A DNA stretch of 64,000 nt, taken from positions 496,001 through 560,000 of the forward strand of contig NZ_RZGZ01000001.1 of the NCBI RefSeq assembly GCF_003990045.1, written 5' to 3'. A model generated the notes under the pieces. It saw only the letters and a list, made by a program, of their open reading frames with translations. It was not told the DNA's origin and searched no databases. Each line of letters begins with the position of its first letter. Positions within the stretch are counted from its first letter, which is position 1. This document shows, one piece after another, positions 53,967 to 58,575 of this stretch. Origin of the DNA: Labedella endophytica. GTDB taxonomy: Bacteria; Actinomycetota; Actinomycetes; Actinomycetales; Microbacteriaceae. Both the position numbers and the translations under genes were made by a program.

Positions 53967-56126
53967 ATGCCCAAGAACAACAAAGCCGGCGGCGGACGTC
54001 CGGCCCGCAACTTCGATCCCTCGTACGGCCCGAAGCGCAGCTCCAGTAGCCCCGGAAGCCGCAGCCCCAAGCACCGAGGTTTCCGCGAGCAGCAGCCGGT
54101 CGAGAAGAAGGCCCGCTGGAACGCCGATGAGCGTGCCGAGCGGGCGAACGACCGGGCGCCGCGTGATGAGCGTCCCGCGCGGAATGACCGTTTCTCGCGT
54201 GATGAGCGTCCTGCCCGCACCGACCGCTTCTCTCGCGATGAGCGTCCTGCTCGGAACGATCGGGATTCGCGTGATGCACGGCCCGCGCGCAACGATCGGT
54301 TCTCGCGTGATGAGCGTCCTGCTCGGAACGATCGGGATTCGCGTGATGCACGGCCTGCGCGCAACGACCGTTTCTCGCGTGACGAGCGTCCTGCTCGGAA
54401 CGATCGGGATTCGCGTGATGCACGGCCTGCGCGCAACGACCGTTTCTCGCGTGACGAGCGTCCGGCTCGTACCGATCGCTTTTCCCGTGATGAGCGTCCC
54501 GCTCGGAATGATCGCGATTCGCGCGATGAGCGTCCGGCTCGTACCGATCGCTTCTCTCGCGATGAGCGTCCTGCTCGCAACGATCGCGACTCGCGTGATG
54601 CACGGCCCGCGCGAAACGACCGGTTCTCTCGCGACGAGCGTCCGGCCCGCAACGACCGTTTCTCTCGCGACGAGCGTCCGGCCCGCAACGACCGGTTCTC
54701 GCGTGATGAGCGTCCGGCCCGCAACGACCGCGATTCGCGTGACGAGCGTCCGGCTCGCAACGACCGTTTCTCTCGCGACGATCGCCCGGCTCGAACCGAT
54801 CGATTCTCTCGCGACGACCGTCCGCGACGCGACGACCGCTCCGGTTCCGGCTCGCGCGGGTCGTTCCCTGCGTCCCGCGAGGCGGGCAACCGGTACTCGC
54901 CGAACGACGACGTCGTCCTCGAGCGGCTCGAGGCCGACGCGATCCAGGCGGAGGATGTCGAGGGTGTGACCTTCGGCGACCTCGGTCTCGGCGGAAACAT
55001 CACGCGCGCCCTCGCCGAACTCGGTGCCGAGAGCCCCTTCCCCATCCAGGCGGCGACGATCCCCGACGTGCTCGCGGGGCGCGACGTGCTCGGCCGCGGC
55101 CGGACCGGGAGCGGCAAGACGATCGCCTTCGGCGCTCCCCTCGTGGAGAAGCTCATGGAGAACGGCGGAGGCAAGAACCGCCAGATGGGCCGGAAGCCCC
55201 GCGCGCTCGTCCTCGCCCCCACGCGTGAACTCGCGCTCCAGATCGACGGCACGATCCAGCCCATCGCGCGCAGCGTCGGGCTCTTCACGACCCAGATCTA
55301 CGGCGGTGTTCCCCAAGGCCGTCAGGCCGGTGCCCTCCAGCGCGGCGTCGACATCGTCATCGGCACCCCTGGGCGCATCGAGGACCTCATCGAGCAGGGT
55401 CGACTCGACCTCTCCGAAGTCGTCGTGACCGTGCTCGACGAGGCCGACCACATGTGCGACCTCGGGTTCCTCGAGCCCGTGCAGCGCATCCTCCGGAAGA
55501 CCTCGAACGGCGGACAGAAGCTCCTCTTCTCCGCGACGCTCGATCGCGGGGTCGCGGCGCTCGTCGACGAGTTCCTCAAGAAGCCCGCCGTGCACGAGGT
55601 TGCCGGCGAGGACCAGGCGTCCTCGACGATCGATCACCGCGTGCTCGTGATCGAGCACAAGGACAAGGACGAGCTGATCGAGCGTCTCGCGAACCGCGAC
55701 GAGAAGACGCTCATCTTCGCCCGCACCCGCGCCTACGCCGAGCGGCTCACCGATCAGCTCGAGGACGTGGGCATCCTCGCCGTCGCGCTGCACGGAGACC
55801 TCAACCAGGCCCGACGGACCCGCAACCTCGAGAAGCTCACATCGGGACGCGTCAACGTGCTCGTCGCCACGGATGTCGCCGCTCGCGGGATCCATGTCGA
55901 CGACATCACCCTCGTCGTGCAGGCGGACGCTCCCGACGAATACAAGACGTACATGCACCGGTCCGGTCGCACGGGACGCGCCGGCAAGGAGGGGACCGTC
56001 GTGACCCTCATCACGCGCAGCAGGCAGCGTCGGATGGCGGAACTGCTCGAGCGTGCGGAGATCGACGCGGAGTTCGTCGACACCCACCCGAGCGACGACC
56101 TCGTGGCGGAGCTCGCGACTCGCTGA
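53967..56126 (+). CDS. DEAD-box ATP-dependent RNA helicase with repetitive Arg/Asp N-terminus
   Basis: 719 residues. Residues about 66-300 are 18 copies of RD(E/A/D)RPAR(N/T)DR(F/D)S plus one degenerate copy. The helicase core starts near residue 333: VTFGDLGLGGNITRAL and FPIQAATIP (Q motif), GRTGSGKTIAFG (I), APTRELALQI (Ia), GTPGRIEDLI (Ib), LDEADHMCDLGF (II, DEAD), SATLD (III), IFARTRAYAERL (IV), TDVAARGIHVDDI (V), HRSGRTGRAG (VI). It ends soon after motif VI. Unwinds structured RNA, probably in cold adaptation or ribosome assembly. The repeat arm is a polyampholyte and may bind RNA or drive condensation. RBS AGGAAGG. Confidence 0.93.
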   Translation: MPKNNKAGGGRPARNFDPSYGPKRSSSSPGSRSPKHRGFREQQPVEKKARWNADERAERANDRAPRDERPARNDRFSRDERPARTDRFSRDERPARNDRDSRDARPARNDRFSRDERPARNDRDSRDARPARNDRFSRDERPARNDRDSRDARPARNDRFSRDERPARTDRFSRDERPARNDRDSRDERPARTDRFSRDERPARNDRDSRDARPARNDRFSRDERPARNDRFSRDERPARNDRFSRDERPARNDRDSRDERPARNDRFSRDDRPARTDRFSRDDRPRRDDRSGSGSRGSFPASREAGNRYSPNDDVVLERLEADAIQAEDVEGVTFGDLGLGGNITRALAELGAESPFPIQAATIPDVLAGRDVLGRGRTGSGKTIAFGAPLVEKLMENGGGKNRQMGRKPRALVLAPTRELALQIDGTIQPIARSVGLFTTQIYGGVPQGRQAGALQRGVDIVIGTPGRIEDLIEQGRLDLSEVVVTVLDEADHMCDLGFLEPVQRILRKTSNGGQKLLFSATLDRGVAALVDEFLKKPAVHEVAGEDQASSTIDHRVLVIEHKDKDELIERLANRDEKTLIFARTRAYAERLTDQLEDVGILAVALHGDLNQARRTRNLEKLTSGRVNVLVATDVAARGIHVDDITLVVQADAPDEYKTYMHRSGRTGRAGKEGTVVTLITRSRQRRMAELLERAEIDAEFVDTHPSDDLVAELATR
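54162..54845 (+). repeat. 36-bp coding minisatellite in the helicase gene
   Basis: Eighteen full contiguous 36-bp units (54162-54809) and one diverged unit; no spacers. Part of the array shows a 72-bp period, NDRDS-RDAR alternating with NDRFS-RDER. Confidence 0.95.
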
Positions 56127-56456: not shown

Positions 56457-57593
56457 TCAGAACAAGGTCGGCCCGTCGGGCTCGGCGAATCGTACGCCGG
56501 TCGGGGGTGGCGACGGCGTCCGTACGGTCGTCGCCGTGCGGCGATCCTCGCTCGTGTGGCCGAGGGGGCGTCGCTCCCCGTCCGGGCCGCGGAACAGGCC
56601 GAGCGCGCTCGACCGGACTCCGCCTGTCGTGGGATCCTCGCGACCTTCGTCGAGACCATGAGACCGGATCAGGGGTCTGATGCGGTTGGCGAGCCACTGG
56701 CGGTAGGCCTTCGGCGCGTACGCGCCGTCTGCGTAGAGGTCGCGATAACGCGGAACGAGTTCCGGCCGGGTCCGTTCGAGCCAATGCATGAACCACGGTT
56801 TCACGCCGGGTTTGAGGAAGAGTGCCGAATACAGCACGGAGGTGGCGCCGGCCGCGGCGATGCGCTGAAGCGCATGGTCGAGGTGTTCCGTGGTGTCGGT
56901 GAGCCACGGCAGTACCGGCATGAGGAAGACGGAGCAGTCGAAACCCGCGTCGCGCGCGGCGGTCACCGTGCGCAGTCGTGCCTCGGCGCTCGGCGTCCCC
57001 GGTTCGATCGACGCCTGGAGATCGTCGTCGTAGATCGCGATGGACATCGCGATGTCGACGGGGACGTGCCCGGCTGCATCGGCGAGGAGGGGGAGGTCGC
57101 GCCGGAGGAGGGTGCCCTTCGTGAGGATCGACAGCGGAGTGCCCGACGACGCGAGCGCGCTGATGATCCCGGGCATGAGCGCATATCGCCCCTCCGCTCG
57201 CTGATACGGGTCGGTGTTGGTGCCGAGGGCCACGGGGTTGTGCCGCCACGTGGGTTTCGCGAGTTCCCGCTCGAGCACCTCCGCCACGTTGAGCTTGACG
57301 ATCACCTGGCTGTCGAAGTCGGTGCCCGCGTTGAGGTCGAGGTAGGTGTGCGTGGGGCGGGCGAAGCAGTAGACGCACGCGTGGCTGCAGCCGCGGTAGG
57401 GGTTGATGGTCCAGCCGAAGGGCATGCCCGAGCCGGTCGGCACCTTGTTCAGGGCCGACTTCGCGAGGATCTCGTGGAAGGTGACGCCGGCGAACTCCGG
57501 GGTGGTGATGCTGCGCACGATGGTGTTGATGCGGGCGAGGCCCGGTAGCGTCGACGCCTCGTCGGCGCGGACCTCCTGCGTGCTCCATCTCAT
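56457..57593 (-). CDS. Radical SAM protein, Rv2578c/SplB-like
   Basis: 378 residues. The [4Fe-4S] motif is GCSHACVYCFARPTH (C-x3-C-x2-C, about residue 70). WTINPYRGCSHACVYC, LGTNTDPYQRAEGRYALMPGII, LTKGTLLRRDLPLL and VFLMPVLPWLTDT are hallmarks of the COG1533 group, which includes spore photoproduct lyase-like DNA-repair photolyase homologues and mycobacterial Rv2578c. Biochemical role unproven. A LexA-type box lies right at its promoter, supporting a DNA-damage role. ATG 57593 is 7 nt after TCTAAT; ATG 57602 would be an alternative start. Confidence 0.88.
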   Translation of the reverse strand: MRWSTQEVRADEASTLPGLARINTIVRSITTPEFAGVTFHEILAKSALNKVPTGSGMPFGWTINPYRGCSHACVYCFARPTHTYLDLNAGTDFDSQVIVKLNVAEVLERELAKPTWRHNPVALGTNTDPYQRAEGRYALMPGIISALASSGTPLSILTKGTLLRRDLPLLADAAGHVPVDIAMSIAIYDDDLQASIEPGTPSAEARLRTVTAARDAGFDCSVFLMPVLPWLTDTTEHLDHALQRIAAAGATSVLYSALFLKPGVKPWFMHWLERTRPELVPRYRDLYADGAYAPKAYRQWLANRIRPLIRSHGLDEGREDPTTGGVRSSALGLFRGPDGERRPLGHTSEDRRTATTVRTPSPPPTGVRFAEPDGPTLF

Positions 57594-57600
57594 GAGTCTC

Positions 57601-57606
57601 ATTAGA
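57601..57606 (-). promoter_or_regulatory. -10 element for the radical SAM gene (leaderless)
   Basis: Minus-strand TCTAAT, 7 nt, ATG at 57593; it overlaps the LexA-type box. Confidence 0.4.
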
Positions 57607-57618
57607 ACATATGTTCGA
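57603..57618. promoter_or_regulatory. LexA (SOS) box
   Basis: On the minus strand TCGAACATATGTTCTA, matching 11 of the 12 defined positions of the actinobacterial consensus TCGAAC-N4-GTTCGA, with the central 12 bp perfectly palindromic. It overlaps the -10 of the radical SAM gene. Confidence 0.75.
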
Positions 57619-57774
57619 ATGAATGGCACTCCTCGCATCCCGTCGGATGCCCCGTCGAACCGGCCAGGTCTGGTCGCTGCAAGAACACCGAACTCGCGCC
57701 GTCGGACGGTGCAGCGATGGGGGAGAGGGGCGTTGGGGGATAGCGTGGGAGGACGACGGAGACCGGAGGACACC

Positions 57775-58575
57775 ATGCGCGTCGCACTCGCCCAGATCGT
57801 GAGCACGGAGGACGTCGCCGCCAACCTGCTGCTCGTCGAGGAGGTGGCGGCGCGCGCGGCCGAGCAGGGCGCCGACCTCGTCGTCTTCCCCGAAGCGACG
57901 ATGCGCGCGTTCGGACACCCCCTGCGCGAGATCGCCGAGCCGATCGACGGCCCGTGGGGCACCGGCGTGGTCTCGATCGCTCGGCGCCTCGACACCACGA
58001 TCGTCGTCGGGATGTTCACCCCCGGAGAGGGCGGACGTGTGCGCAACACGCTCCTCCTCGCGGGACCCGACGCCACCTCCTCGTACGACAAGGTGCACCT
58101 CTTCGACGCGTTCGGCTTCCTCGAGTCGCGGACGGTCGAGCCGGGCACGACGGCGGTCACCGCGGAGGTCGCCGGAACCACCATCGGTCTGGCGACCTGC
58201 TACGACATCCGCTTCCCCGACCTCTTCGTCGCCTCCGCGCGAGCCGGTGCACGCGTCCAGATCGTGTGCGCGTCGTGGGGGGCCGGTCCAGGGAAGGCCG
58301 CGCAGTGGGAGCTCCTCGCTCGATCCCGCGCGATCGACACGACGAGCGTCGTCGTCGCCGTCGGTCAGGGCGATCCGCGCGCCGCTGGAGTCGACGCGGT
58401 GGCCGATGCGCCGACCGGGATCGGGCACAGCGTCGTGGTCTCGCCGTTCGGCGAGGTGCTCCACGCCCTCGGAGCCGACCCCGACCTGCTCGTCGTGGAT
58501 CTGGACCTGAGCGCGGTCGACGACGCCCGGAGGACGCTCCCCGTCCTCGACAACCGCGTCGACGGGCTCGTCTGA
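57775..58575 (+). CDS. Carbon-nitrogen hydrolase (nitrilase superfamily)
   Basis: 266 residues. The catalytic triad regions are clear: Glu in ADLVVFPEATM (about residue 42), Lys in SSYDKVHLFDAFG (about 107), Cys in GLATCYDIRFPDLF (about 142). The YDK(V/I)HLFD and CYDIRFP forms are those of the Nit1/Nit2 (omega-amidase or deaminated-glutathione amidase) branch. RBS CCGGAGG. Divergent from the radical SAM gene across 181 bp. Confidence 0.92.
   Translation: MRVALAQIVSTEDVAANLLLVEEVAARAAEQGADLVVFPEATMRAFGHPLREIAEPIDGPWGTGVVSIARRLDTTIVVGMFTPGEGGRVRNTLLLAGPDATSSYDKVHLFDAFGFLESRTVEPGTTAVTAEVAGTTIGLATCYDIRFPDLFVASARAGARVQIVCASWGAGPGKAAQWELLARSRAIDTTSVVVAVGQGDPRAAGVDAVADAPTGIGHSVVVSPFGEVLHALGADPDLLVVDLDLSAVDDARRTLPVLDNRVDGLV

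Follow-up and report, generated by a model that had tools for sequence, protein, structure and literature searches.

The window analysed here is a stretch of 64,000 nucleotides from Labedella endophytica, which carries on its minus strand a gene for a radical SAM enzyme of the Rv2578c family, preceded by a LexA-type (SOS) box and a predicted promoter (Table 1). The gene reads from a start at 57593 (MRWS), with a further in-frame ATG at 57602, to a stop codon at 56457-56459, and its product (P0001) contains the cluster motif CX3CX2C at residues 72-79. Against the model of the PA0069 family (NF033668) the protein reaches 215.7 bits, below the cut-off of 360, and TIGR04070, the model for spore photoproduct lyase (SPL), is absent among its matches at E 0.01. 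The DEAD-box helicase of the same region has a long N-terminal repeat of the RDERPARNDRFS type, which is open in several frames.

Table 1. Positions of the radical SAM gene, its upstream elements and two other genes in the window
Feature	Position	Strand	Basis
Rv2578c-family radical SAM gene	56460..57593	minus	NF038135, 511.5 bits (cut-off 430); PF04055
LexA (SOS) box TCGAACATATGTTCTA	57603..57618	minus	11 of 12 bases of the actinobacterial consensus; kept in orthologues
Predicted extended -10, TG-T-TCTAAT	57601..57609	minus	Sequence; includes the right half-site of the box
Predicted -35, GTGCCA	57624..57629	minus	4 of 6 bases of TTGACA; TCTAAT lies 17 nt downstream
DEAD-box helicase	53967..56126		
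Nitrilase (divergent)	57775..58575		

The initial annotation described the box as matching the actinobacterial LexA consensus at 11 of 12 bases and as overlapping a -10 element, TCTAAT, with the ATG seven nucleotides further on. Both statements are borne out: a direct pattern match at 57618-57603 on the minus strand differs from TCGAACN4GTTCGA at one of the 12 defined bases, and on the minus strand of the region (GTGCCATTCATTCGAACATATGTTCTAATGAGACTCATGAGATGGAGC) TCTAAT occupies 57606-57601, shares TCTA with the box and is separated from the ATG by the seven nucleotides GAGACTC. The one departure from the operator, G to T, turns the -10 from TCGAAT into the better TCTAAT; the -35 of this gene is itself weak. 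With up to three mismatches allowed, the full 16-mer is found at a single position of the window (and there on both strands, being nearly palindromic), where 100 shuffles of the window gave a mean of 0.07 matches, and at three places in the whole 3.67-Mb genome. The looser 11-of-12 criterion picks out 45 genomic places, and the reversed pattern 3, so that a match to the consensus is by itself unconvincing; it is where the box stands in orthologues that sets it well above chance.

Conservation of the box and promoter layout

Among 80 named relatives, of which the nearest is Labedella phragmitis (81% protein identity), the box lies at a nearly constant place, the best match falling at -23 to -25 in 75. 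There are no mismatches in 39 loci, one in 23, two in 7 and three in 11, giving 62 of 80 with at most one, while in three controls of 78-80 sequences each the best match always had at least three mismatches. These loci, mostly from Microbacteriaceae and Demequina, are not independent; a class-wide sample provides the stronger test.

A gene of the NF038135 family scored above the cut-off in 80 of the 197 genomes of the class sample. Upstream regions were read at 81 class loci, these 80 and one fragment; they derive from 89 entries (58 regions, 30 loci and the window, contig-end fragments and matches below 30 bits being passed over in the fetching) after eight diverged paralogues had been set aside, and 79 are testable, two (L049 and L079) having no MRW start by which to anchor them. 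Retention of the box upstream of orthologues, proposed as a check when the locus was annotated, was found in 77 of these 79 loci, in 14 families, at no more than 100 nt from the start, in keeping with the 75 of 80 named loci; decay in Microbacterium, described below, is the exception. Of the 77 boxes, 65 were recognized by the general consensus (up to two mismatches); the other 12 required a second form, GGGAAC-N4-GTTCTA (up to one mismatch), which was defined post hoc on these same data. No box was found within 100 nt at the two remaining testable loci, L065 and L072, both of which belong to the window's own family.

Controls in the same genomes gave almost nothing. A stretch at 320-420 nt upstream, a distance that starts at the profile match instead of the anchored start codon, held a box in 0 of 79 cases, and the core GAAC-N4-GTTC, required to be exact, occurred at 63 of the 81 class loci against 0 of 79 control stretches. 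With the reversed pattern, and likewise at 750-1000 nt upstream, the best match had two mismatches, in one of 78 sequences each; none of the 78 sequences of either control contained a box with zero or one mismatch. All these upstream counts are kept separate from a family sample, in which 133 of 199 genomes were over the cut-off. A chance match was ruled out on the conservation in orthologues together with these controls.

We also rejected control of the divergent nitrilase as the main role of the box. A nitrilase was found by tblastn in the flanks, some of them short, of one of the 80 named loci; it is therefore the radical SAM gene that the box accompanies.

Column counts over the 80 named loci show a promoter-like arrangement around the box. 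At the distance of a -35 element most loci have TTG[AC], the left TCGAA is conserved at 87-98% per base, and TGTTCGAAT, at 85-100% per base, is the best-conserved block upstream of the start. This block (TGTTCGAAT / TGTTCTAAT) has the form of an extended -10 (TG-N-TCGAAT) at 17 nt from the -35; the six or seven bases between it and the ATG are too few to accommodate a Shine-Dalgarno site. From this spacing transcription would start at the ATG and yield a leaderless mRNA, and the right half of the box probably doubles as the extended -10 of a leaderless promoter. The arrangement is not universal: in the genus that we take to be Streptomyces, 14 of 15 loci have the box further upstream, at -46 to -49, and most show a GAGGAGG run ahead of the ATG, from which an mRNA with a leader would be expected.

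Decay of the box is seen in Microbacterium. In the 17 loci of this genus (L202, L206, L208-L212, L214-L221, L224 and L225) the left half has a mean of 1.9 mismatches and the right half 0.8, against 0.4 (left) and 0.1 (right) for the remaining 63 named loci. Mismatches are inflated, here as in the column counts, by the reading at -24 of five loci, four of them Microbacterium, whose best box lies elsewhere. Greater decay of the left half than of the right, which includes the -10, is as expected if LexA control were being lost and the promoter kept, and this is possibly what is happening in Microbacterium.

Relation to spore photoproduct lyase

COG1533 membership had led the initial annotation to call the protein SPL-related, and in terms of fold this stands. 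In a structure model built from 30 sequences (pLDDT 71, pTM 0.72) the best Foldseek match is SPL (E 9e-7, TM about 0.44). SPL is also the best fold match in the PDB, with Z scores of 14.4-15.0 over 253-265 residues, the alignment at Z 15.0 superposing 253 residues at 3.7 A with 12% identity. Lipoyl synthase (Z 13.0), NifB and PFL activase come next and RlmN lower, so the margin of SPL over lipoyl synthase is small. A profile of the mixed alignment A2, which includes PA0069-type sequences, likewise finds SPL first in the PDB (E 7e-5).

The catalytic residues of SPL are another matter. According to PMC3742179, SPL requires in addition to its cluster a fourth cysteine (C140/C141), the hydrogen-atom donor, and a relay tyrosine (Y98 in Gt, Y99 in Bs), and the C141A change inactivates the Bacillus subtilis enzyme in vivo. 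We compared 62 protein rows, made up of 61 of the 81 class loci (290-460 aa) and P0001, so that the window protein is counted twice; 19 frames of intein length and one fragment are excluded. Apart from C72, C76 and C79 no cysteine of the family is invariant, and no fourth shared cysteine was found in the 62 class rows or in 30 family rows. The relay position, corresponding to Tyr98 and adjoining the third cluster cysteine in the alignments, is Phe in 61 of 62 rows, while the tyrosine of the SAM site (SPL Y96) is kept, as Y78, in 61 of 62.

Since the region of SPL Cys140 is left unaligned in the profile searches, the fourth cysteine was tested by cysteine counts, which need no alignment there. 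Six of the 62 class rows (over the core) and 10 of the 30 family rows (over the aligned stretch) have no cysteine beyond the three of the cluster. It is on these sequences that the argument rests, because SPL of Clostridium acetobutylicum is reported to have its conserved cysteine at a different place (PMC5368176). The one further cysteine of the window protein, C223, lies opposite a leucine of SPL in our reading of the alignment, and the extra cysteines of other members fall at four scattered positions, none of them common to all. The enzyme is thus, by its modelled structure, a relative of SPL in fold that is without the known SPL machinery: it shares with the SPL structures of the 4FHC series the radical SAM fold, the cluster motif and the SAM-site tyrosine, and differs from them in having no fourth conserved cysteine, in the Phe for Tyr98 and in the low identity over the aligned part. 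True SPL identity was rejected on the catalytic residues, and SPL retained as a relative in fold.

As for the excluded frames, 19 of the 81 class-sample orthologues are 490-702 aa long. Three long frames that were scanned (L006 and L072 of this sample and the named locus L223) gave matches to intein-splicing or homing-endonuclease domains within the radical SAM gene, several of these matches being below the Pfam cut-off.

Evidence for SOS regulation in this genome and in other bacteria

The genome of L. endophytica encodes LexA and RecA, and the motif found at the radical SAM gene recurs at recA, with one mismatch, and at imuA', with none; boxes at lexA are weak, with two or three mismatches in all nine genomes compared (this one and eight family members). 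The imuA' gene (NF058630; G000:C7:147888) is one of the two other places in the genome at which the 16-mer occurs. Its layout is similarly compact, a perfect SOS box overlying a TCGAAT -10 with the ATG 8 nt further on (L003:1501-1529).

LexA control of radical SAM genes of this kind has been published. In Streptomyces venezuelae the radical SAM gene vnz_31145 has a LexA ChIP-seq signal and is induced 20-fold by mitomycin C (PMC9380542), and in Mycobacterium tuberculosis a 'DNA repair photolyase', for which the report names no locus, shows RecA-dependent induction by mitomycin C (PMC8151990); we liken both to the present gene by their descriptions and not by the name of the Rv2578c family. The former is another actinobacterial radical SAM gene under LexA, but its published box, TCGACCGTTCGCTC, is placed at -61, instead of the -46 to -49 seen in the genus taken as Streptomyces. 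Before ATGCGCTGG (the MRW start) the published box occurred in 0 of 392 genomes of that genus, among which S. venezuelae is possibly not included. Elsewhere, a radical SAM protein counts among the members of the core SOS regulon of Gram-positives in a seven-genome comparison that included Leifsonia xyli (PMC7739468), SOS regulation of COG1533 SplB is stated for several species (PMC8565304), and splB is described as under LexA, with different motifs, in alpha- and betaproteobacteria, a trait not seen in the gammaproteobacteria of that study (PMC3323433). For alpha- and betaproteobacteria as well as Bacteroidetes these reports concern splB or COG1533 genes, for Gram-positives and Balneolaeota radical SAM genes, all predicted to lie under a local LexA operator as here, although outside actinobacteria the LexA motifs are others. 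The gene targeted by the Samy integrase in Streptomyces (SCO6481 in S. coelicolor) belongs to the Rv2578c family as PMC12924846 names it; the accessible part of that paper contains no mention of LexA, calls a link to repair speculative and reports inactivation of the gene in the strain that natively harbours the Samy prophage. The functional lead offered in the initial annotation is therefore not a new one, and the present gene is a well-supported further case of LexA control of SplB-like radical SAM genes, not a discovery.

For the family names themselves the searchable literature yielded little: Rv2578c was not found in it together with LexA, nor was PA0069, nor an account of such a promoter as LexA-controlled and leaderless, and for Rv2578c and the promoter these are weak negatives, most subscription papers lying outside it. 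Rv2578c is reportedly listed by Davis in 2002 and, it is said, in a 2012 paper on LexA ChIP in M. tuberculosis.

Homologues in other phyla were sought on plasmids. A homologue is carried by 46 plasmid records, of which 13 were fetched for an upstream scan; six more were fetched, and five of these entered alignment A2. In the 200 nt before the start, a codon of our own choosing in most of the fetched records, an exact GTTC-N7-GTTC is present in 9 of 11 alphaproteobacterial loci with PA0069-type homologues, the nine including close relatives (three Rhizobiaceae, two Paracoccus and two Azospirillum). The reversed pattern occurs in 0 of 11, and elsewhere in these loci GTTC-N7-GTTC turns up once in about 38 kb. 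The single Aeromonas locus fetched has a CTGT-N8-ACAG box, CTGTATATATAAACAG. We take both patterns to be LexA box types; neither the two remaining alphaproteobacterial loci nor Gemmatirosa showed any of the boxes sought. On a Runella plasmid (L243:956-2609) the gene of a distant homologue runs into the start of a UvrD-like helicase gene, possibly as part of a repair operon.

Proposed regulation and role of the enzyme

We propose, with a probability of roughly 0.85, that LexA controls the enzyme gene. The gene would then be a monocistronic SOS gene, on whose box, between the -35 and the -10, a LexA dimer would sit in undamaged cells and block the promoter. Cleavage of LexA, triggered by RecA, would free the promoter, and a leaderless mRNA beginning at or next to the ATG would be translated into the Rv2578c-family enzyme, which would most likely process a lesion or otherwise modify DNA by a 5'-deoxyadenosyl radical reaction unlike that of SPL. 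Action on DNA by such chemistry is the reading we favour from the regulation and the fold, with less assurance than LexA control. Of the original suggestion that the gene is controlled by LexA and DNA damage and acts in repair, LexA control is strongly supported by the conservation in orthologues, and the published data from S. venezuelae and M. tuberculosis fit; given that the catalytic cysteine and relay tyrosine of SPL are missing, a role in repair appears likely but unproven and photoproduct-lyase chemistry unlikely.

It might be objected that the palindrome is a conserved core promoter only and no LexA operator, seeing that its right half overlaps the -10, is the best conserved part and in Microbacterium is better kept than the left. 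A promoter has no need of the left TCGAA, which is nevertheless conserved (87-98%), and the excess of the exact core over the control stretches (63/81 against 0/79) and the presence of the motif at recA and imuA' tell against this explanation too, which we regard as the least probable of all those considered. The other alternatives concern the enzyme and both share control by LexA, so that the probabilities attached to the several readings do not add up to one.

A true SPL, or an enzyme reversing thymine dimers, brought under SOS control in bacteria that do not form spores would account for the top fold match (E 9e-7; Z 15.0), the top match of the A2 profile (E 7e-5) and the retained Y78. It is nonetheless improbable, as the cysteines of the cluster alone are invariant, Phe stands for Tyr98 in 61 of 62 rows and a TIGR04070 match is lacking; loss of activity in the C141A enzyme of B. 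subtilis points the same way, with the caveat of the displaced cysteine reported for C. acetobutylicum. Less easily dismissed, if still rather unlikely, is an SOS-induced enzyme whose substrate is protein, tRNA or rRNA and not DNA. The next-best folds (lipoyl synthase, NifB, PFL activase and, lower, RlmN) would suit it, and no repair gene adjoins the radical SAM gene in the window; against it, the nearest fold is that of a DNA repair enzyme, homologues stand under several LexA motifs alongside DNA-repair genes, and in one distant relative there is overlap with a UvrD-like helicase gene.

As an SOS target the gene is ordinary, and the enzyme mildly interesting. The conservation of its control makes a widespread family without a known reaction testable, in that it indicates DNA damage as the probable trigger of the enzyme's production, while the missing SPL residues make reversal of thymine photoproducts by the known mechanism the wrong first assay. 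The result also argues against naming these genes splB. We would tentatively go further, in a suggestion that we ourselves hold to be less likely than not: the Rv2578c and PA0069 enzymes may be a core SOS enzyme spanning phyla, which acts on damaged DNA by radical chemistry that is cysteine-independent and differs from that of every characterised repair enzyme, and in actinobacteria a LexA half-site may have merged with a leaderless -10, with operator and promoter strength traded base by base.

Two further boxes were seen in passing. The remaining genomic place of the 16-mer is a perfect SOS box, TCGAACGTATGTTCGA, at a 201-aa ORF (L002:1501-1516; G000:C2:174280), which has T5orf172/MUG113 matches below the Pfam cut-offs and is possibly another SOS gene. 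One family has a second, diverged copy of the gene (L085-L089), with TCGAA[TA]GCGTGTTC[TC]A upstream in five of the eight paralogue loci fetched for the radical SAM family.
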